From: Methanobacteriota archaeon
GTDB taxonomy: Archaea; Thermoplasmatota; Thermoplasmata; RBG-16-68-12; JAFNFQ01
Assembly: GCA_017885655.1 (NCBI GenBank)
Contig: JAFNFQ010000023.1
Location: 1 to 33,429, forward strand
Reading direction: 5' to 3'
Length of the DNA stretch: 33,429 bases
Part shown: positions 3,250 to 31,495 of the stretch, one piece after another
How positions within the stretch are numbered: the stretch's first letter is position 1
Layout of the letters: every line of letters begins with the position of its first letter
Translations under genes and position numbers: made by a program
Notes under the pieces: model-generated
Database searches by the model: none
The model's input: the letters and a program-made list of their open reading frames with translations, nothing else
What the model was told of the DNA's origin: nothing

Positions 3250-4479
3250 CTATGCGCCGAACTTGACGTTCCTGCCAGCGAGGTCGAGCATCAGTGGCAG
3301 CAGGTCGATCCCCCTGAGCCTCCCGAGCCCGCCCTTGGCGCATGCGATCTCGTCGAAGGTCTGCACGTCGTCGACGCGCACGCCCTCGCCGAAGATGAGC
3401 ATCGGGACAGGGTCGCCCGTGTGGTTCCTCACCGCGCAGGGCGTCGAGTGATCCGACGTGACCGCGAGGACCAAGCTCTCGGTCATGTGATCCCTGATGT
3501 AGCCGAGCATCTGGTCCGCCCTCTCGACCACCTTGACCTTGTCCATCGGCCTGCCGTCGTGCCCGCAGATGTCGGCGGCCTTGACATTGATCAGCACGAA
3601 GTCCTTGTCGACGAAAGCATCCATGGCGGCCTTGGCCTTCGCCATCATGTCGGTGTCCAGGCCTCCCGTGGCGCCCTTCACCTCCAGCACCTCCATGCCG
3701 ACAGAGCCGCAGATGCCCTTGATCAGCGCGACGCCGGCGACGACGGCCGACTTCATGTTGTGCTTCTCCTCGATGCTCTTCAGGTGCGGGAAGATCCCGC
3801 CGCCGCGGATGAGGACGGCGTTGGCGGGCACCACGCCCTTCTCCTCTCTCTCCCTGTTGACAGAGTGCTGCCTTAGCGTATCATGCGCGATGCGTGAGAA
3901 CTCGTTGATTATCCTCGCGGTCTTCTCCGCCCCGGGCTGAATCGCCTTGCATTCGAGGATGTTGCTGCCTTCCTCATGAGGGTCGGTGTCGCTGACGTCG
4001 GCGGAGAGCCCGGGCCCCCGGAGGACCAGGGCAGCCCTGTGCTCGGTCCCCGCCTTGAAGAGTATCCTGACCCCCTCGATCTCCAGGCCGTCAAGGCTCT
4101 TCGCGAGCTCGACGGTGCCCTGCTTGATCCTTCCCGCCCTCCTGTCGAGCACCCTCATGTCCCTGTCCACGGTAGCGAAGTTGCACCTGAACGCGACATC
4201 GCCGCCCTTGACCGCGATGCCCGCGCCAGCGGCCTCGAATGGTCCCCGCCCGGTGTAGACCTGGAACGGGTCGTAGCCGAGGAGAGAGAGATGCGAGGTG
4301 TCGCTGCCCGGGCACACGCCAGGTGCTATCGGATCGAGTATCCCGCAAGCGCCGTTGGAGGCGAGCCAGTCCAGATTGCTCTTGGCGGCGAGCTGGAGAG
4401 GCGTCTTGTTCCCTAGGTCCTTTATCGGACGGTCCCCGAGCCCGTCGAGGACGATGAGCAACAGCTTCCTGCCTTCCAT
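3250..4479 (-). CDS. apgM: 2,3-bisphosphoglycerate-independent phosphoglycerate mutase, archaeal type
   Basis: Interconverts 3-phosphoglycerate and 2-phosphoglycerate in glycolysis and gluconeogenesis in the cytoplasm. This is the archaeal ApgM branch of the alkaline phosphatase superfamily. At 409 residues it has the usual family length. The N-terminal LLLIVLDGLGDRP supplies the first metal-binding Asp (Asp12). GSDTSHLSLLGYDP carries the expected nucleophilic Ser (about Ser59). VLAVTSDHSTPCAVRNHTGDP near the C-terminus gives the Asp-His metal ligands. The ATG directly follows GGAGG on the minus strand, which is unusually close for a ribosome binding site, so translation may instead be leaderless from the AT-rich stretch at 4498-4510. 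It is preceded on the same strand by the coiled-coil gene, 59 bp away. Confidence 0.95.
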   Translation of the reverse strand: MEGRKLLLIVLDGLGDRPIKDLGNKTPLQLAAKSNLDWLASNGACGILDPIAPGVCPGSDTSHLSLLGYDPFQVYTGRGPFEAAGAGIAVKGGDVAFRCNFATVDRDMRVLDRRAGRIKQGTVELAKSLDGLEIEGVRILFKAGTEHRAALVLRGPGLSADVSDTDPHEEGSNILECKAIQPGAEKTARIINEFSRIAHDTLRQHSVNREREEKGVVPANAVLIRGGGIFPHLKSIEEKHNMKSAVVAGVALIKGICGSVGMEVLEVKGATGGLDTDMMAKAKAAMDAFVDKDFVLINVKAADICGHDGRPMDKVKVVERADQMLGYIRDHMTESLVLAVTSDHSTPCAVRNHTGDPVPMLIFGEGVRVDDVQTFDEIACAKGGLGRLRGIDLLPLMLDLAGRNVKFGA

Positions 4480-4538: not shown

Positions 4539-6788
4539 CTAGAGCTTTCTGAGGGCCCGCCTGAGCATCTCGAGGTCCTTGAGGCGCCGAACGTCTCTCC
4601 GCGCCCTCCTCTGCAACTCGACCTCGCGCGTGTCGAGTTCCTCCTCTCTGGCGGCAATCGTCTTTTCCCTCTTCGCATGCTCGGCCTCTCTCTCCTTCAT
4701 CCGAGCCGCCGCCATCGCGACCTGGTGCATCGCGGCTGCGACGGCCTTCCGCTTCTGCTCGGCCGCGGCTAGTTGCTCTCCGCTTCTGCGTGCGGCTTTC
4801 GCCGCCTCCGATTCCAACGCGGCTGCTGTCTTCCTCATCGCTGCTTCCTGCTCGCGCACCTTCTCCAGCCGCGTTGCGGAGTCTTGCTCCCAAGAGGCGA
4901 TCTCCTGCTCTCTCTGCACGATCCTGCTTTCCCGCCGCGCGGCTGCAATCCGCATTCTTTCAGCTTTCTCCTCAACCGCCCTCTCCGACGCCTCGAGTCT
5001 CCTTTCGTAATCGACCAGTCTGCGCTCCCTCAGGGCGCTCTGCTTCGCCCGCGTGATCAGCTCGTGCTCGAGAGCGATGAGCTTGTCGCGAAGCTGCATG
5101 GTGCCATCCCTCGCCTCACTGGCGGCCGCGAGGGCTCTTGCGAGTTCCTCTTTCTTCCGTTCCAGCTCTTCCGTCTGTTCTCGGTGCCTTTGTCTCGCTG
5201 CATGGCTCTCTGCCCCGACTTTCTCACGCGCCGATTCAAGCTCGTTCTTGAGCTTCTTGACTTCCTGTTCCTTGGCGGCGAGGTCCAGTTCCCTTGCTTC
5301 GAGTCGTTCCTTCAGGAATGCAAGCTGATCTTTCTCGACGGCGAGGTCGTCTGAGCTTGACTTGAGTTCGGCATTTCGAAGGGCGACATCTCCGAGTTTC
5401 TTCTTCAGCGCGGCATCGAGCCGTCTGTGCTCCTTCAGCTTGCGAGTGAGAGCCTGTGATTGCGCGGCGGATTGCCTCTTTGCGGTGGCGAGGGCCTTCT
5501 CCTTTGCGATTAAATCCGCGGACCTTTGTTCCAAGATTCCTTCGTGAACCCTGAGCCCCCTCTCCGCCTTCGCCAGCATTTCGGACTTGACTCCGAGCGA
5601 TTTCGATGTCCGCCCGAGCTTATGCTCCATAGCTGTCAGCTCCTTTTCCCGGGCAGACAGCTTCTCATCCCTCTCCAGCAAGTCAGAAGTCACCGACTCA
5701 AGGCTCCTACGATCTGCCGCAAGCTGGCGGTTCAGCTCGGCGTGAGCGCGCCTCTCCTTGTCGAGAGTCTTCTCCTCGTCTCTCAGCATTCTCTCGGACC
5801 GCGACAGCTTCTCCGCGCGCTTGTCGAGAGCCGATGTTTGAACCTTCAACGAATCGCCTAGCTCCGCGAGCTTCCTCTCCCTCATCCCGCATCCGGTCTC
5901 TGCCGCCTTCAGTCCCTTCTTCCCAGCGGTCAGTCTGCTCGATTCCTCCTTCAGGTCTGCCCACATCTCCTGGATTCGTTTCTTCTCGCCTTCGAGGGCT
6001 CGGCGGGAATCCTCAGCGGCGCTCTTCACGGCCACGAGCGCCTCTCTCGTCTTGTCGAGCTTGTCCAGTCTCCCCGCCAGTTCCGCCTTCTCCCGATCCA
6101 GCTGAGCCGCCATCGCGTCCAGCTCGCCTCGCCGCCTCTCCATCTCCCGCCACGCCTCGGCCAGCCGTGCGCGCCTCTCGGCGATGTTCGGCCCCGCCAT
6201 CAGCTTCTGCACCATCGCGGTCCCCTGGAGCCTGAGGTCCTCGAGTTCACGGCTCATCGCCCTCATGGCCTCGGACTGGAGCCTCGCGGCGATCTCGTCC
6301 TCATGGAGATGGACAGACTCCTGCTGGAGTTGTGACTGCCGTTCTCGCTCCATCTCGGAACTTCTTGCGGCGTCCTCGTCGGCGATTCTCTTCGTCTCCT
6401 CGCTCTTCACCTCTTCGATTGCGGTGGCTGGATCGAAACCCTCTCCGAGGACGCAGGTCGGGCGGGAATTTGTCAGCTGCGCTACGCTGATTTTAGAGTT
6501 GTGATAGGCGTAGGACCGGACCTCCAGTGCACATCTCGGGCTGAGCGTGTCCCTCGCTAATTCCCTGAACGCGTCAGGTCCCCCGTGCGGGTTCACAGAA
6601 CTGTGCTGCGCGACGATGGGCCTCCCCCGCTGGATCAACAGGTGGCCCGTGGCTGGAGTCCCTGCCCTGATAACGCTCGTGCTCACGATGCCCGTGAACT
6701 TCTTAGGGTTGAGCTCTTCCAGCACGGACTTGAGGACTTCAGGCCCGCCGCTGAGCAGCTGCTCCGCCCTGCCAGGCGGAAAATCCAT
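4539..6788 (-). CDS. Long coiled-coil protein with a small N-terminal globular domain
   Basis: A 749-residue protein. Residues 1 to about 125 form a globular domain containing PATGHLLIQRGRPIVAQ, a pattern reminiscent of the PatA-N/DUF4388-type fold (glycine-turn, hydrophobic strand, G-x-I-x-A). From about residue 125 to the end it is almost uninterrupted Ala/Glu/Lys/Arg/Leu heptad-like sequence, so a very long alpha-helical coiled coil is expected. There is no signal peptide or membrane segment. SMC, Rad50 and similar ATPases are excluded because no Walker A motif is present. A cytoskeletal, scaffold or chromosome-associated role is only an inference. The last residues (RRDVRRLKDLEMLRRALRKL) are strongly basic. 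A TATA-like element sits 23-34 nt upstream of the ATG. Confidence 0.8.
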   Translation of the reverse strand: MDFPPGRAEQLLSGGPEVLKSVLEELNPKKFTGIVSTSVIRAGTPATGHLLIQRGRPIVAQHSSVNPHGGPDAFRELARDTLSPRCALEVRSYAYHNSKISVAQLTNSRPTCVLGEGFDPATAIEEVKSEETKRIADEDAARSSEMERERQSQLQQESVHLHEDEIAARLQSEAMRAMSRELEDLRLQGTAMVQKLMAGPNIAERRARLAEAWREMERRRGELDAMAAQLDREKAELAGRLDKLDKTREALVAVKSAAEDSRRALEGEKKRIQEMWADLKEESSRLTAGKKGLKAAETGCGMRERKLAELGDSLKVQTSALDKRAEKLSRSERMLRDEEKTLDKERRAHAELNRQLAADRRSLESVTSDLLERDEKLSAREKELTAMEHKLGRTSKSLGVKSEMLAKAERGLRVHEGILEQRSADLIAKEKALATAKRQSAAQSQALTRKLKEHRRLDAALKKKLGDVALRNAELKSSSDDLAVEKDQLAFLKERLEARELDLAAKEQEVKKLKNELESAREKVGAESHAARQRHREQTEELERKKEELARALAAASEARDGTMQLRDKLIALEHELITRAKQSALRERRLVDYERRLEASERAVEEKAERMRIAAARRESRIVQREQEIASWEQDSATRLEKVREQEAAMRKTAAALESEAAKAARRSGEQLAAAEQKRKAVAAAMHQVAMAAARMKEREAEHAKREKTIAAREEELDTREVELQRRARRDVRRLKDLEMLRRALRKL

Positions 6789-6810
6789 TGGGTCATCGAG
6801 GCCGCCTCTC

Positions 6811-6822
6811 TCGATAAATAGG
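6811..6822 (-). promoter_or_regulatory. TATA-like promoter of the coiled-coil gene
   Basis: The minus strand reads TATTTATCGA here, centred about 28 nt upstream of the ATG at 6788. This matches the leaderless spacing seen at several other genes in the window. Confidence 0.5.
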
Positions 6823-6828
6823 TATTCG

Positions 6829-7008
6829 GGTCGTTATCTGACTTGAGAACGAGCTGGAAGGCGAAGAGGCCCCGCGGACCGATGAAGCCGCAAGGCGCCA
6901 GGTCGCATCTGAATGCTGGCAGCTCTCTCCCGCCGCCAGAAGAAAAAGCCGTCCAGGCGTCACCGACATTCCGGCTCGCCCGCCAAGGTGACGGATCATC
7001 CAAGTAAG
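6829..7008. other. Non-coding stretch between the coiled-coil promoter and the 21-bp array
   Basis: I see no convincing gene or RNA here. The open frames are short and lack a promoter or ribosome binding site. The 21-bp phase of the following array cannot be followed clearly before about 7009. Confidence 0.5.
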
Positions 7009-7616
7009 TCTCCCGACGGAATGTCTAATGCCGCAATCCGGACGGATTGCTCCTCCATTCGGGACGACCCATCCTGCGTCCGGATGGAATTCGCCTCGAC
7101 CCTCACGGAGACAGCGCGATTCCAGGCTCAGGTCGTGAGCACGCTCGCAGACCACCCGCCAACGGTTCCTGAGTCCTCCTCGATTCAGACATACCTCCCC
7201 TCGATAGTTGCGGAATCGCCCTCGATCCGGGTGGACCCTGCCTCGGTGTGGGAGGACCTCTCCTACGCGTAGGAACCGTTCTCCTACGGCGGGACGGACA
7301 TTTCCTACATCCGAATGGAACCTTCCTACGTGTAGGAGGACTCCATCCGGGTCATCTACACCCCATCAGACCGGGGACAGGTTCCTCCTACGTGTAGGAG
7401 GACCTTGTCCAAACATAGGAGGCTCCCTCCTGCGCGTAGGAACATGTCTCCTACGTGTAGGAGGACTCCGTCCAGACGCGATTCGGGCCGTCAGCATGGT
7501 TTAGACCCTGGTCAGAGTGAGGACGACCCTCTCCTACGTGTAGGAGGACTCCTCCTCGGCGTAGGAGGACCTCGCCTACATGTAGGAAGATTCCGTCCCG
7601 GAGGTCCTCCCCATAG
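7009..7616. repeat. Degenerate tandem array, strict 21-bp period, about 28-29 units (array 1)
   Basis: Units start at 7009, 7030, 7051, 7072, 7093 and so on, every 21 nt; in the later half clear unit starts are 7261, 7282, 7303, 7324, 7386, 7428, 7449, 7532, 7553 and 7574. The early units resemble TCCTCGATCCGGGTGGACCC. The late units resemble TCCTACGTGTAGGAGGACTC and contain a near-palindromic core (TCCTAC-GT-GTAGGA). Read in phase from 7009, the first 12 units encode heptads such as SSIRDDP, PSIRVDP and ASVWEDL. The TAG inside the later core closes this frame at 7270-7272. No spacers are present, so it is not a CRISPR. Whether it is a decayed coding repeat, a protein-binding array or a minisatellite cannot be decided from this window. 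Confidence 0.85.
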
Positions 7617-7640
7617 AAGCGGTCGAGGAGCGGGCGCGTC

Positions 7641-7735
7641 GAAAGTCGTTTATCTCGGCGGCGCAATGGTATTTCCGCGTCTGTGATGCGAAGAGGGTCA
7701 GCTGATCATCGTGATTGACCATATGAGTGCTGAGA
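7641..7735 (+). repeat. Left copy of a ~95-bp direct repeat flanking the abiE cassette
   Basis: Aligns without gaps to 9561-9655 at an offset of exactly 1920 nt. By hand count 77 of 95 positions match, with 44 of 46 identical in 7690-7735. It holds a promoter-like element (GAAAGTCGTTTATC, 7641-7654) and the C/D box RNA described separately. Confidence 0.85.
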
Positions 7736-7738
7736 TGC
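7677..7738 (+). ncRNA. Box C/D sRNA candidate, copy 1 (D guide matches tRNA-Met C34)
   Basis: Elements in order: 5-bp terminal stem strand GCGTC (7677-7681); C box GTGATGC (7683-7689, one deviation from RUGAUGA); 12-nt D' guide (7690-7701); D' box CTGA (7702-7705); 5-nt spacer; C' box GTGATTG (7711-7717, degenerate); 12-nt D guide ACCATATGAGTG (7718-7729); D box CTGA (7730-7733); closing strand GATGC (7734-7738, one G-U pair). A BRE/TATA-like element at 7641-7654 would start transcription at about 7676, the base of the stem. In the D guide, the fifth base before box D pairs with C34 of a tRNA-Met anticodon loop (CUCAUA). The imperfect C box suggests this copy may be weaker than copy 2. The identification is by inspection only. 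Confidence 0.65.
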
Positions 7739-7818
7739 CTTGCCGTCGAGTCATTGTGAGCACGGAGTCTGAGATTGGGGCTTCCATGTCCTCGTCAGCT
7801 GATTGGCGGAACGCAAGT

Positions 7819-7866
7819 CATAAATACATTCATGTCATAACATCCCAATAATAGGGACATTATGAC
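7819..7866 (+). promoter_or_regulatory. abiE promoter with a palindromic operator overlapping the start codon
   Basis: A TATA-like CATAAATAC lies at 7819-7827. It is followed by inverted arms GTCATAACATCCC (7834-7846) and GGGACATTATGAC (7854-7866), which pair at 11 of 13 positions around a 7-nt spacer. The right arm covers the antitoxin ATG at 7862. AbiEi antitoxins are known to repress their own promoter by binding inverted repeats, so this is the likely autoregulatory operator. Confidence 0.65.
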
Positions 7867-8497
7867 TGAAATGAATACTCCTGCCATATGGAAGAAACTG
7901 CTCGTCGAAGGGCGCAGGATGGTCACCTCGGGCGAGATAATGGAGCTTGCCGCCCAGGCGGGGAAAAAGGGGGACCGCAGCCTGCGATACCTCATCGAGC
8001 ACGGCTACATCGCCCGCATCCTCCGGGGCATCTTCTACGTGCGCAGCGCGGACGAGCGCGAGCGCGGCTACACTGAACGCTCGACCTTCGAACTGGTGGC
8101 GGAAGCCCTGGTATTGAAGGGCGTGAAGCGCTGGTACTTCGGCATGGAGACCGCCCTCAAGCTCAACGGCATGACCCATGAGTACTTCGCGGTCGACTCG
8201 GTCGTCACCGATTCCTTCAGGACCACGAAGGTCATAGGCATCCTCGGTTCGAAGTTCCAGTTTCACAGGTGGAGCGCCGACCGCTTCGGCTTCGGTTCCG
8301 TTCGAAAGGGCCGCCTGACGTACTCGGATCCCGAGAAGACAGTCCTCGACATGGCTTACAGGACGCACCGCCAGGGAAAAGGTTCGCCGAGGGACGTCAT
8401 CATGGAGCACATAGAGAGGTTGAACATGGACAAGCTCCGAAGGTACCTTGCGCGCTACTCGATGCGATTCCGGGAGGCCATGGGAGAACTGCCATGA
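7862..8497 (+). CDS. AbiEi-type antitoxin / transcriptional repressor of a type IV toxin-antitoxin pair
   Basis: A 211-residue protein upstream of, and overlapping by 4 nt (ATGA), an AbiEii nucleotidyltransferase. The N-terminal ~60 residues form a winged helix (RMVTSGEIMELAAQAG, then LIEHGYIARILRGIFYVR, the wing typical of AbiEi N-terminal domains). The remainder is the AbiEi effector domain, including KRWYFGMETALKLNG, the phrase that usually reads as 'y.g...Al.lhG' in the family. It should counteract the toxin and repress the operon. The start is at ATG 7862; a second in-frame ATG at 7871 is possible. The island lies between repeated C/D RNA genes, which suggests acquisition. Confidence is high for the family and moderate for the antitoxin role in this host. 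Confidence 0.85.
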   Translation: MTEMNTPAIWKKLLVEGRRMVTSGEIMELAAQAGKKGDRSLRYLIEHGYIARILRGIFYVRSADERERGYTERSTFELVAEALVLKGVKRWYFGMETALKLNGMTHEYFAVDSVVTDSFRTTKVIGILGSKFQFHRWSADRFGFGSVRKGRLTYSDPEKTVLDMAYRTHRQGKGSPRDVIMEHIERLNMDKLRRYLARYSMRFREAMGELP

Positions 8498-9420
8498 AGG
8501 ATTTCTTCGAGCGCCTGAACGCCCTGGGGAAGCCGCGGAGGACCGACATCATTGAGAAGGACTTCCACCTGCACCGGCTTCTCCACGCCATGTCCCTGGA
8601 CACGCACCTCAGGAAGAACCTCGCCTTCAAGGGCGGGACGTGCCTCATCAAAGCCTACCTGGGCTACTACCGCTTCTCCGAGGATGTGGACTTCACCTGG
8701 CGCGACTCGGCGATCTGGAAAGGGAGAAGCCTGTCGGAGACTAGGCGGCGGTGCTCGAAGGAAATTGACGAGGTCCTGAGGCGGGTCAAGTCCATCTCAG
8801 GGGACCTGGGCTTCAGCTTCGAGGGCGACAAGTCGGACAAGAGCGAAGTGCATATCAGCAGCGGCGGCAGGATGGTCCTCCTCTGGCTCGGGTACGATTC
8901 GGAGGTCCTCGGAGTCCCGTCCAAAATCAAAGTCGAGGTCAATCTAGTCGACAAGATGCTCTTTCCCATTGTGGAAAGGAAGGTGCACAGCTATGTCGAG
9001 CAGCTGGAATCCAGGGAACTCGCCTTCCTCTACGAGAAACCCTGGAAGGAATACTCGGCGAAGATAGAGCTCCCCTGCTATAATGCGCGCGAGATATTCG
9101 TCGAGAAATGCAGGGCAGCGCTGACCAGGAAAGTCCGCAAGCTCAGGGATGTCATCGACATCGTCTACATGGGCGAGAAGCTCGACTTTGCGATTTCCGA
9201 TTTCGTGCCGCAGATTCTCGACAAGGTCCGATTCATGCTGGAGACCTACGAGCGGTATCGCGACAACATCGAGCTTCCGAAGGGGTCGATGCCTGACATC
9301 GGAGGCGCCGACGAGATGCGTTTGGTCCTCGGAGAACCCCTGGCGGGCATCGCCAGCAAGATAAGGAGAGTCAATGAGCATCTGGAGGGAATGCGGAAGA
9401 AGCTGTTGTCGGACAGGTGA
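8494..9420 (+). CDS. AbiEii-type nucleotidyltransferase toxin
   Basis: A 308-residue predicted nucleotidyltransferase of the type IV toxin-antitoxin AbiEii/DUF1814 family; the better-studied members are growth-inhibiting NTP transferases. Landmarks: EKD (21-23); FKGGTCLIK (45-53, the GG-S/T motif and Lys53); YRFSEDVDF (59-67, with Asp64 and Asp66 as metal ligands); the later EKCRAAL segment (about 203-209); and RDVIDIVY (about 217-224), matching the usual 'EK..AL...R..RDl.Dl' block. All catalytic positions look intact, so the enzyme is probably active. ATG 8494 overlaps the antitoxin stop as ATGA, indicating translational coupling. An in-frame extension upstream to 8269 exists but lies within the antitoxin gene and is not needed. 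Confidence 0.9.
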   Translation: MKDFFERLNALGKPRRTDIIEKDFHLHRLLHAMSLDTHLRKNLAFKGGTCLIKAYLGYYRFSEDVDFTWRDSAIWKGRSLSETRRRCSKEIDEVLRRVKSISGDLGFSFEGDKSDKSEVHISSGGRMVLLWLGYDSEVLGVPSKIKVEVNLVDKMLFPIVERKVHSYVEQLESRELAFLYEKPWKEYSAKIELPCYNAREIFVEKCRAALTRKVRKLRDVIDIVYMGEKLDFAISDFVPQILDKVRFMLETYERYRDNIELPKGSMPDIGGADEMRLVLGEPLAGIASKIRRVNEHLEGMRKKLLSDR

Positions 9421-9560
9421 CGGTAGGATGATGGTGTTCGGCATCGCCAGCAGCCTCGCAACCGTCGAGGACGCCAGGTAAATGCGCTAGTTCGGTCGTT
9501 GAGGCGCGAAGGCAGATTCGTGAGCACCCGACGGCTGGCCTCGCCGCGTGGAAGCAAGCC

Positions 9561-9655
9561 GAAAGCCGTTTATCCCGCCGCCATGATGAGGTCCTCGCGT
9601 CGATGATGAGAAGAAGGTCAGCTGATCATCGTGATTGACCCTATGAGTGCTGAGA
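9561..9655 (+). repeat. Right copy of the ~95-bp direct repeat flanking the abiE cassette
   Basis: Ungapped partner of 7641-7735. The promoter-like block GAAAGCCGTTTATCCCGCCG (9561-9580) matches the left copy at 17 of 20 positions, and the RNA part at 44 of 46. Confidence 0.85.
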
Positions 9656-9658
9656 CGT
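9597..9658 (+). ncRNA. Box C/D sRNA candidate, copy 2 (D guide matches tRNA-Met C34)
   Basis: Terminal stem strand GCGTC (9597-9601); perfect C box ATGATGA (9603-9609); 12-nt D' guide GAAGAAGGTCAG (9610-9621); D' box CTGA (9622-9625); 5-nt spacer TCATC; degenerate C' box GTGATTG (9631-9637); 12-nt D guide ACCCTATGAGTG (9638-9649); D box CTGA (9650-9653); closing strand GACGT (9654-9658). The 12-4-5-7-12 spacing is that of archaeal C/D guide RNAs. By the N+5 rule the D guide targets the C in CACU-C-AUA, which is C34 of a tRNA-Met anticodon loop. A box C/D RNA guiding this modification is known in Haloferax volcanii. A TATA-like element at 9561-9574 fits a start at about 9596. CTTTTC at 9671-9676 may help termination. 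The D' target is not identified. Confidence 0.72.
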
Positions 9659-29051: not shown

Positions 29052-30197
29052 ATGGAGTTCGAATACAACGAGACCCATCAGATGATCAAGAAGTCTGTCA
29101 GGGAGTTTGCCGAGAAGGAACTTGCGCCTGAGAGCGCGCACTACGACGAGGTCCAGGAGACGCCTGTGCACTGGATGAAGAAGATGGCGGAGATGGGCCT
29201 CACGGGCATGGCAATCCCGACGGAGCTTGGCGGGGCGGGCCTCGACTACATCTCCTACTCGATCGCGATCGAGGAGATATCGCGCATAGACGCCTCGGCG
29301 GGCGTCATGCTAGGAGTGAACAACGGCCTGGCCTGCGAGCCGCTCTACAAATGGGGGACCGAGGAGCAGAAGAAGAGGTACCTGACAAAGGTGGCGAGCG
29401 GGGAGTGGGTCGGGGCGTACGCATTGACCGAGCCGGGCGCGGGCTCCGATGCCGCCGCCCTCACATCGACCGCCGAGCTCAAGGGCGGGGAATGGCACCT
29501 CAACGGCTCCAAGATCTTCGTGACGAACGGCTACATGGCGAAGCTCCTCATCACCTACGCGCGGACTGATCCGGGCACGGGGCCGAAGGGGATTTCCGCT
29601 TTCATCGTCCCAGATTCATCTCCAGGGTACCAGCGCGTCAAGAAGGAGAACAAGCTGGGCATCAGGGCCTCAGACACCGAGCTCATCGCCTTCGATGACT
29701 GCAGAATCCCTGAGGACCACCTGCTCGGCACGAGGGGCGAGGGTTTCAAGATCGCGATGGCGACGCTGGATGTTGGCAGAATCGGAATCGCATCGCAAGC
29801 ACTCGGCATCGCTCAGGCCGCCATGGAAGCCGCCATCAAGTACTCCAAGGAAAGGAAGGCCTTTGGCGGGCCGATAAGCAACCTGCAGGCCATCCAATTC
29901 AAGCTGGCCGACATGGCCACCCAGATAGATGCAGCCAGGCTGCTCACTCATCGGGCCTGTTGGATGAAGGACCAGGGGATCAAGCACACGACGGAGTCGA
30001 GCATGGCGAAGCTGTTCGCCTCGGAGGCGTGCAAGCGCATAGTCGACCAGGCGCTGCAGATACACGGCGGGTACGGGTTCGTCAAGGACTATCCCGTCGA
30101 GAGGTACTTCAGGGACCAGAAGATCACGGAGCTCTACGAGGGGACGAGCGAGATACAGAGGCTTGTTATTGCAAGGAGCCTATTGCGGGGAAGCTAG
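29052..30197 (+). CDS. Acyl-CoA dehydrogenase (short/branched-chain type)
   Basis: A 381-residue FAD enzyme oxidising an acyl-CoA to the 2-enoyl-CoA, passing electrons to ETF. Blocks in order: ELAPESAHYDE; IPTELGGAGLDYISYSIAIE; the FAD/substrate segment YALTEPGAGSDAAAL (about 122-136); FVTNGYMAKLLITYART; DVGRIGIASQALGIAQAAME; ALQIHGGYGFVKDYPVERYF; and YEGTSEIQRLVIARSLL. Glu363, in YEGT, is the usual catalytic base of the short-chain and butyryl branch. Length and motifs are standard. The chain-length preference cannot be fixed. No ETF or thiolase genes are adjacent. A short relic of a related 3' end occurs at 30588-30632. Confidence 0.93.
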   Translation: MEFEYNETHQMIKKSVREFAEKELAPESAHYDEVQETPVHWMKKMAEMGLTGMAIPTELGGAGLDYISYSIAIEEISRIDASAGVMLGVNNGLACEPLYKWGTEEQKKRYLTKVASGEWVGAYALTEPGAGSDAAALTSTAELKGGEWHLNGSKIFVTNGYMAKLLITYARTDPGTGPKGISAFIVPDSSPGYQRVKKENKLGIRASDTELIAFDDCRIPEDHLLGTRGEGFKIAMATLDVGRIGIASQALGIAQAAMEAAIKYSKERKAFGGPISNLQAIQFKLADMATQIDAARLLTHRACWMKDQGIKHTTESSMAKLFASEACKRIVDQALQIHGGYGFVKDYPVERYFRDQKITELYEGTSEIQRLVIARSLLRGS

Positions 30198-30210: not shown

Positions 30211-30468
30211 CTACTCGGCCCTCCTGTACCACTGGAGAGACCGTGTAACCAAGTACACCCCGAAGATAAGACCGATTATCAGCAATACTGCGATTGGGAC
30301 ACGGCTCCTCTCGAAGCTGGGTGATAGCGGCGTTTGAATCCAAAGGACCAGCCATAGGAAGAACCCGACAGTTGCCGACAAACCTCCGATGAGAAACACC
30401 GCCGCCCATGCTCTCCACCTATCCAGTGCGGAAGCAGTCGCATCGGGCGTATCCTCCTTTCCCCTCAC
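30211..30468 (-). CDS. Small two-helix membrane protein
   Basis: An 85-residue protein from GTG 30468, with CGGAGG nine bases upstream on the minus strand. A hydrophilic N-terminus is followed by two hydrophobic segments (WAAVFLIGGLSATVGFFLWL and IAVLLIIGLIFGVYLV) and a short basic end (QWYRRAE). The fold resembles small hairpin membrane proteins. Function is unknown. It converges with the acyl-CoA dehydrogenase gene, 13 bp apart. A TATA-like AATATTAA (minus strand TTAATATT) lies at about 30514-30521. Confidence 0.65.
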   Translation of the reverse strand: MRGKEDTPDATASALDRWRAWAAVFLIGGLSATVGFFLWLVLWIQTPLSPSFERSRVPIAVLLIIGLIFGVYLVTRSLQWYRRAE

Positions 30469-30587: not shown

Positions 30588-30632
30588 CGAGATACAAAGG
30601 CTGATCACTGCGACGAGCCTGCTGAGGGAAGC
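30588..30632 (+). pseudogene. Relic of an acyl-CoA dehydrogenase 3' end
   Basis: This stretch resembles the 3' end of the intact gene (30149-30194) at about three quarters of positions with one gap. In frame it reads EIQRLITATSLLRE against EIQRLVIARSLLRG. Nothing before or after it matches, so only the last ~15 codons remain. Confidence 0.5.
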
Positions 30633-31473: not shown

Positions 31474-31495
31474 TATACCTACTTAGGTATAACAA
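31474..31495. repeat. 22-nt dyad motif, copy A
   Basis: TATACCTACTTAGG followed by TATAACAA. Extended to 31470-31495 it is a perfect inverted repeat: TTGTTATACCT, loop ACTT, AGGTATAACAA. It matches copy B at 21 of 22 positions. Confidence 0.7.

Follow-up and report, generated by a model that had tools for sequence, protein, structure and literature searches.

Archaeal box C/D sRNA guides carry boxes C, D', C' and D and contain two guides. The RNA gene described here has the same boxes and two guides, and the guide before box D' is complementary to 23S rRNA. It differs from the described sRNAs in that no Rfam family matches it at the gathering threshold and in that two diverged copies of it stand around a toxin-antitoxin (TA) cassette. 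The AbiE type IV TA system is bicistronic and consists of AbiEi and AbiEii, whose genes overlap by 4 nt (PMC3985639). Unlike the AbiE of that account, the pair studied here is archaeal and has sRNA copies on its flanks, and its closest homologues found are 57% identical and belong to the same order.

Archaeal att sites lie in protein-coding genes and intergenic regions as well as in tRNA genes (PMC8371274), and genomic islands are known at tRNA and tmRNA genes, which they enter via tyrosine integrases (Islander, PMC4383910). Such islands resemble the present locus in that foreign genes stand between an intact RNA gene and its copy, and a tRNA gene in the same genome offers a direct parallel. 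The intact gene, the copy and, at the level of the order, the empty site in relatives are all found at the abiE cassette, whereas an integrase in or adjoining the element is not. Other differences from these islands are that none of the cassettes inspected here has an integrase, that the inserts measure 0.4-2.3 kb, that the diverged repeats may include a promoter, that many genes of one genome are targets, and that a C/D RNA gene is among them. T6SS clusters and Rhs loci undergo homology-facilitated illegitimate recombination, which leaves arrays of displaced immunity genes and 3' ends (PMC5361080). There, as we envisage it here, a homologous anchor brings in a module, an older 3' end can shift downstream, and repeated rounds give arrays. 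In the account of those loci the toxin gene itself is replaced, whereas here the anchor would be an ordinary host or RNA gene and the module an unrelated TA pair. Small variable segments in bacteria are also described in the literature that bears on an anchored route (PMC2884548). In full-text literature searches no listed work reported integration at a C/D RNA gene or TA cassettes between gene-end copies. We view the abiE/sRNA layout rather as belonging to a recurrent set in this genome, in which a gene end, a cassette and a second copy of the gene end follow each other.

An AbiE pair between two copies of an sRNA gene

The window is the whole stretch of DNA that was analysed (33,429 nt) and corresponds to C23:1-33429 of a 2.54-Mb genome in 86 contigs with a completeness of 94.2%. 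G-numbers denote genomes (G000 is that of this uncultured archaeon), C-numbers denote contigs and L-numbers denote sampled stretches. The features around abiE are as follows.

3250..4479, minus strand: gene that we take to be apgM, cofactor-independent phosphoglycerate mutase; conserved sRNA neighbour, with homologues of 55-64% identity beside the sRNA in relatives
4539..6788, minus strand: gene of a coiled-coil protein (CC); in relatives it adjoins the sRNA in divergent orientation
7640..7735, plus strand: repeat copy 1, promoter-like part and box C/D sRNA (RNA at about 7678-7738, with GTGATGC as box C and CCATATGAGTG as guide D)
7862..8497, plus strand: predicted AbiEi antitoxin (PADLOC PDLC02273, 3.1e-42)
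8494..9420, plus strand: predicted AbiEii nucleotidyltransferase toxin (PF08843, 9.6e-28; PADLOC PDLC02321, 4.6e-53)
9422..9473, plus strand: coaBC fragment from the 5' part of the coding sequence (identical at 42 of 52 positions to the intact coaBC and to a fragment on contig C25; E 5.9e-7)
9560..9655, plus strand: repeat copy 2, promoter-like part and box C/D sRNA (RNA at about 9598-9657; box C and guide D as in the consensus; guide D' departs from it once)

A sequence-only reading of this DNA had reported a gapless repeat of about 81% identity at an offset of 1920, with 44 of 46 positions identical in the RNA, and realignment confirmed it. Within the window, copies 7640-7735 and 9560-9655 are identical at 78 of 96 positions (81%) without gaps (BLAST E 1.4e-20). 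The RNA core (7690-7735 and 9610-9655) has the 44 of 46 identities; with box C included (7678-7735) the count is 53 of 58, and the promoter part upstream (7640-7677) agrees with the other copy at 25 of 38 positions. Similarity is highest in the 3' part and stops at the RNA 3' end, and the flanks beyond the repeat are unrelated (29/100 identical on the left, 32/100 on the right). Chance similarity is ruled out as the source of the repeat, because a reversed-sequence decoy reached 3e-9 at best in 642,836 bases of this genome.

Two further statements of that reading hold in part. Both copies were said to keep promoter, boxes and closing stem. Copy 2 has every element (box C RUGAUGA, box D CUGA, the closing stem, and D' and C' inside), but in copy 1 box C is GUGAUGC and has lost the final A that is retained in 22 of 25 alignment rows, while the closing stem is kept through a G-U pair. 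Guide D of copy 1 reads CCATATG and departs from the consensus. The abiE pair was also said to fill the space between the copies. It is present there but does not fill the space alone: the 52-nt coaBC fragment follows directly behind abiEii, and the pair is bordered by further sequence of about 125 nt and about 86 nt.

The two abiE genes overlap in ATGA at 8494-8497. An AbiEi-like protein and an AbiEii nucleotidyltransferase are thus encoded in one operon, and the pair is predicted to be an AbiE type IV TA system. Searches of ORFs, Pfam and PADLOC gave no integrase between the sRNA copies, and no inverted repeat pair was found at the cassette ends within the window. The closest AbiEii homologues found, at 57% identity, come from G002 and G018, where the AbiEii homologue is on another contig than the single sRNA. 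A viral origin of abiE was considered and rejected, as an AbiEii scan of viral contigs gave 11 pattern stretches and 0 relatives.

The sRNA gene and its surroundings in relatives

The box C/D reading is backed by conservation in an alignment of 25 sequences from the order and class. The conserved elements are boxes C and C', the closing stem and two guides, AAGAGGGTCAG ahead of box D' and CCCTATGAGTG ahead of box D. Of the order's 37 genomes, 30 carry the sRNA according to a sequence-only model. Full copies number one in 28 of the 30 carriers and two in G000 and G023. The second case was rejected as a tandem pair, its two copies lying on separate contigs, each adjoining CC, and two tandem full copies occur in this genome alone among the 30 carriers. 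By this distribution the gene is an old box C/D gene of the order.

Guide D' is complementary to 23S (A/C)TGACCCTCTT over 10-11 bp in 4/4 LSU loci covering the site, the archaeon's own included. The site presumably belongs to the helix 69 / C1920 region, and guide D' is a predicted rRNA-methylation guide for it. In copy 1 this guide has no internal mismatch to 23S, and in copy 2 it has one internal A.C mismatch. Each copy has hence lost a different conserved position, since box C and guide D are altered in copy 1 and guide D' is mismatched in copy 2. A search of the examined LSU sequence gave no target for guide D. By the box-adjacent register rule, wobble C34 of a CAU tRNA may be a target; the sole CAT tRNA in the scanned loci is of the initiator type and has no matching sequence. 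The linker TCATC is common to both copies and occurs in no other sequence of the alignment, which fits a duplication within this lineage, whatever the route.

Partial sRNA copies were also seen elsewhere in the order. On contig C27 of G001 (L043) the 3' half of the sRNA is repeated at 3996-4021 and 8083-8145 beside tandemly duplicated large secreted-protein genes, and on contig C47 of G006 (L044), a genome of the same genus, a partial copy at 4997-5022 also lies beside duplicated large secreted-protein genes. The G001 copy was considered as an att site and rejected, a segmental duplication of the large gene together with the sRNA 3' half being more likely. Segmental duplication therefore occurs too.

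The earlier reading had predicted that relatives would show an empty site with the RNA and no abiE. At the level of the order this was borne out: none of 30 relative loci with a full sRNA has abiE (at least 2 kb downstream is covered in 23 of the 30), and 28 of 30 carriers are single-copy. A single sRNA without abiE is the pattern that insertion predicts. The closest genomes compared are of the same order and none is of the same genus or family, so the empty site is an order-level one. When genome contigs were scanned with apgM for closer relatives, the 34 loci obtained reached at most 60% identity and none was near. In 25 of the 30 relative loci apgM, CC or both lie on the 5' side of the sRNA and divergent from it, as in the window. 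Among the other five, the sRNA lies 17-1,423 nt from a contig end on its 5' side in four, and L100 has neither gene in 2.3 kb.

The distance from CC to copy 1 is 890 nt in the window and usually about 110-260 nt in relatives, which lack the extra stretch. More DNA was thus gained on the CC side of copy 1, and copy 1 is not cleanly in the ancestral position, since a stretch of about 850 nt absent from relatives separates it from CC. This interval contains, at 7230-7600, repeats built on the palindrome TCCTACGTGTAGGA, with CCTACGTGTAGG at 7325, 7387, 7450 and 7533. A 12-mer of these repeats was found in none of the other stretches of the genome examined and in none of the controls.

The same layout at other gene ends

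Gene ends elsewhere in the genome are duplicated in the same way. On contig C9, the promoter of coaBC and its first 28 codons recur as a 133-nt copy (86%) at 1.7 kb upstream of the intact gene, with two ORFs between, and the 3' end of the gene after coaBC is repeated (126 nt, 80%) beyond another ORF. We take that gene to be pantoate-kinase-like (PK), and both ends of this pantothenate-pathway operon are affected. All 29 relative loci compared have coaBC directly beside the kinase gene and no second coaBC copy in the examined flank. A tRNA gene with an intron is duplicated as a whole (122 nt, 94%). The 3' end of an 847-aa gene is duplicated (118 nt, 81%), the remnant has stop codons, and the two ends enclose a ParE-like toxin and a ribbon-helix-helix (RHH) protein. 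The promoter and 5' end of a presumed GNAT gene are duplicated over 155 nt (83%). An array on contig C4 consists of a gene 3' end and, behind it, three remnants of that end (71%, 85% and 90%), separated by NYN, Fic and other genes, and contig C12 has a 101-nt pair of 93%. The 3' end of an E2 acyltransferase gene is present in three copies that enclose PIN and YafQ-like genes, and a further three-copy array encloses two wHTH/nucleotidyltransferase-like pairs (named by eye; Pfam gave a weak wHTH only). These last two arrays come from stretches chosen for another reason and lie outside the sample described below. Pieces of coaBC and of the sRNA are captured in other cassettes as well: contig C25 has a 165-nt coaBC fragment beside two 46-nt repeats containing the sRNA 3' half. 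The window has a second, weak case near its right end.

30149..30189, plus strand: 3' end of a gene (29052-30197) that is presumably acyl-CoA dehydrogenase-like (41 nt, 76%, E 0.04; EIQRLVIARSLLR vs EIQRLITATSLLR)
30588..30628, plus strand: remnant-like copy of the end of the 29052-30197 gene; an ORF at 30211-30468 (minus strand) is enclosed between the two ends

Across the cases the duplicated ends measure 46-155 nt, are 71-97% identical and vary in length. TA genes (ParE/RHH, PIN, Fic and NYN) are found in several cassettes; to say that cassettes are mostly TA is valid for the named genes only, since a number of the cassette genes match no family. General family searches of the tested cassette genes showed neither a transposase nor cas1. 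The whole genome (94% complete) gave a single tyrosine recombinase match (PF00589), on contig C1, with no gene-end cassette in the surrounding 18 kb. No common core is evident among the targets, which are the sRNA, the tRNA gene, and 3' and 5' ends of coding sequences.

The recurrence was counted in a repeat-blind sample of 642,836 bases of this genome (L141-L160 and L181-L200) at a cut-off of E <= 1e-15. Eight repeat loci passed and five were retained as gene-end cassettes: the tRNA gene, the 847-aa gene, the GNAT gene, the C4 array and the C12 pair. Region L151 carries six of the passing pairs, which amount to two of the five loci. In 1,131,067 bases of relatives seven loci passed the same cut-off and one was retained, or two if L215 is added (109 nt, 100%, G028), which is no gene end and is ambiguous. 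Two weaker repeats (L160 and L197, 50 and 64 nt) stand outside the five. Paralogous genes or segmental duplications (L143, L157, L159, L183, L102, L176, L204, L115 and L121) were taken off the count, and the window, L137, L138 and L263-L269, picked for their matches, were left out of it. Some stretches of the sample (contigs C9, C60, C4, C23 and C26) and of the controls lie on contigs that earlier searches had touched. At E <= 1e-3 the controls gave 1 pair in 200 kb of G017, 5 in 200 kb of G001, 5 in 392,364 bases of other relatives and 8 in 338,703 bases of synteny loci. Only stronger pairs were trusted, because the reversed-sequence decoy itself gave 13 matches at E <= 1e-3 in the sample from this genome and 10 in 792,364 control bases (best 4e-10). 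The enrichment of gene-end cassettes over relatives is suggestive and not established, since a binomial computed by hand on the retained loci (5 in 643 kb against 1-2 in 1,131 kb) gives about 0.06.

Several other repeats were recorded. Stretch L181 (G000:C1) opens, at the start of its contig (1-2828), with a tandem array whose unit recurs about every 61 nt; it was rejected as a cassette and taken off the count. In L216 (G008:C11), 6774-6869 and 8957-9052 duplicate the 3' end of a 134-aa uncharacterised gene of the same family as the C4 array gene. This gene end, duplicated in two families of the order, is a possible recurrent hotspot. In L262 (G017) a 244-nt copy of the coaBC 5' end (90%) at 6494-6737 lies far from the intact gene and starts an open frame of 176 codons. 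The motif TATACCTACTTAGG followed by [G/T]ATAACAA is common to window positions 31474 and 32755 and to L138 at 10343, and is possibly an operator or repeat element.

Routes of insertion and their meaning

The sequence-only reading had offered two routes: insertion that duplicates its target, or recombination of tandem paralogues. The empty sites and the recurrence favour the first and weaken the second, and we consider it probable that abiE entered at the sRNA gene and that the sRNA was duplicated in the process, as one case of a recurrent gene-end-duplicating insertion. Insertion with duplication is favoured because the same architecture is found at other gene ends. From these layouts we infer an order of events, a recombination route and mobility. 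An AbiE type IV TA cassette of about 1.8 kb would have entered at an old box C/D sRNA gene present once, and abiE would then have had the sRNA gene and its promoter on each side, so that the host would never have lost the RNA. In general, small cassettes, often with TA genes, would join host gene ends together with a 46-155-nt duplicate of the end. Incoming or excised circular DNA would carry part of the target gene beside the cassette. Recombination through this part, either by a Campbell-type single crossover or by homology-anchored illegitimate joining behind the anchor, would give the order intact gene, cassette, remnant.

Homology-anchored integration of foreign DNA is the most likely mechanism. 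It is preferred because the targets are diverse, because promoters are included (sRNA, coaBC and GNAT) and because the single PF00589 match has no cassette within 18 kb. The coaBC and sRNA pieces in other cassettes hint that portions of former targets travel along with cassettes, and could also be by-products of rearrangement. A fuller scheme of recombinase-free capture, which would be new for this archaeal lineage and in which small, mostly TA-bearing circles or fragments with a host-gene end would integrate at the matching gene, duplicate 46-155 nt of any end so that this gene survives, and take pieces of former targets with them as they move, is offered tentatively and is less likely than not. 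Differences between gene-end copies fall on codon positions 1, 2 and 3 in the numbers 27, 32 and 55; this third-position excess is not specific to a foreign copy, because selection acting on the intact copy alone would produce it as well. At the PK end some majority residues are kept by each copy. Most departures of the coaBC remnants are at positions in which the intact gene and its relatives agree, the pattern expected of decay.

The cassette could instead have been integrated site-specifically by a trans-acting recombinase, of the tyrosine or another type, with the 3' part of the sRNA as att site. The rise of similarity toward the RNA 3' end, where it stops, would suit such an enzyme, as would the like use of a tRNA gene. 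The successive remnants at one gene 3' end on C4 resemble tandem island accretion, and the 3' end of the C4 array gene is also duplicated in another family (G008). However, the inspected cassettes are without an integrase in a genome with one tyrosine recombinase match, the sRNA, tRNA and both kinds of coding-sequence end have no evident core in common, and the repeats span the promoter in the sRNA, coaBC and GNAT cases. We therefore regard such a recombinase as unlikely. The likeness to integrative elements at tRNA genes, which the earlier reading had drawn, does not extend to the integrase or to a common target sequence. That reading had also singled out the C/D RNA gene as an unusual insertion site. 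The idea of a special att site was abandoned, since a tRNA gene and the 5' and 3' ends of coding sequences are duplicated likewise, which leaves the C/D gene as one target among several.

The sRNA could also have been duplicated first, with abiE landing later, by unrelated means, in the safe gap between tandem paralogues. Similarity over the whole gene and promoter is what gene duplication gives, the lineage-specific TCATC linker is common to both copies, and the segmental duplication in G001 includes the sRNA 3' half, with a similar partial copy in G006. Against this, no relative has two tandem full copies, and independent duplications would not be expected to give the same layout at several unrelated genes. 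The first of these points only weakens the paralogue reading, as no relative closer than the same order was compared; on balance we find it improbable. Transposition of the IS or casposon type with target-site duplication would account for foreign genes bounded by direct repeats, and is very improbable given repeats of 46-155 nt that vary in length, are bound to gene ends and are 71-97% identical (at abiE 96 nt and 81%, where a short exact duplication is expected), no inverted repeat pair at the cassette ends in the window, and no transposase or cas1 in general family searches of the tested cassette genes.

The abiE/sRNA case does not prove that C/D RNA genes are integration sites. One result at this locus is a duplicated predicted rRNA-methylation guide, each copy short of a different conserved position. 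TA and defence genes move often between archaea, and how small recombinase-free ones enter harmlessly is poorly known. If insertion with gene-end duplication is true, it would be a simple answer, as the target gene keeps working. The remnants would then date and order insertions, cassettes could be found by a plain repeat search, and guide-RNA genes would be marked as possible landing sites.
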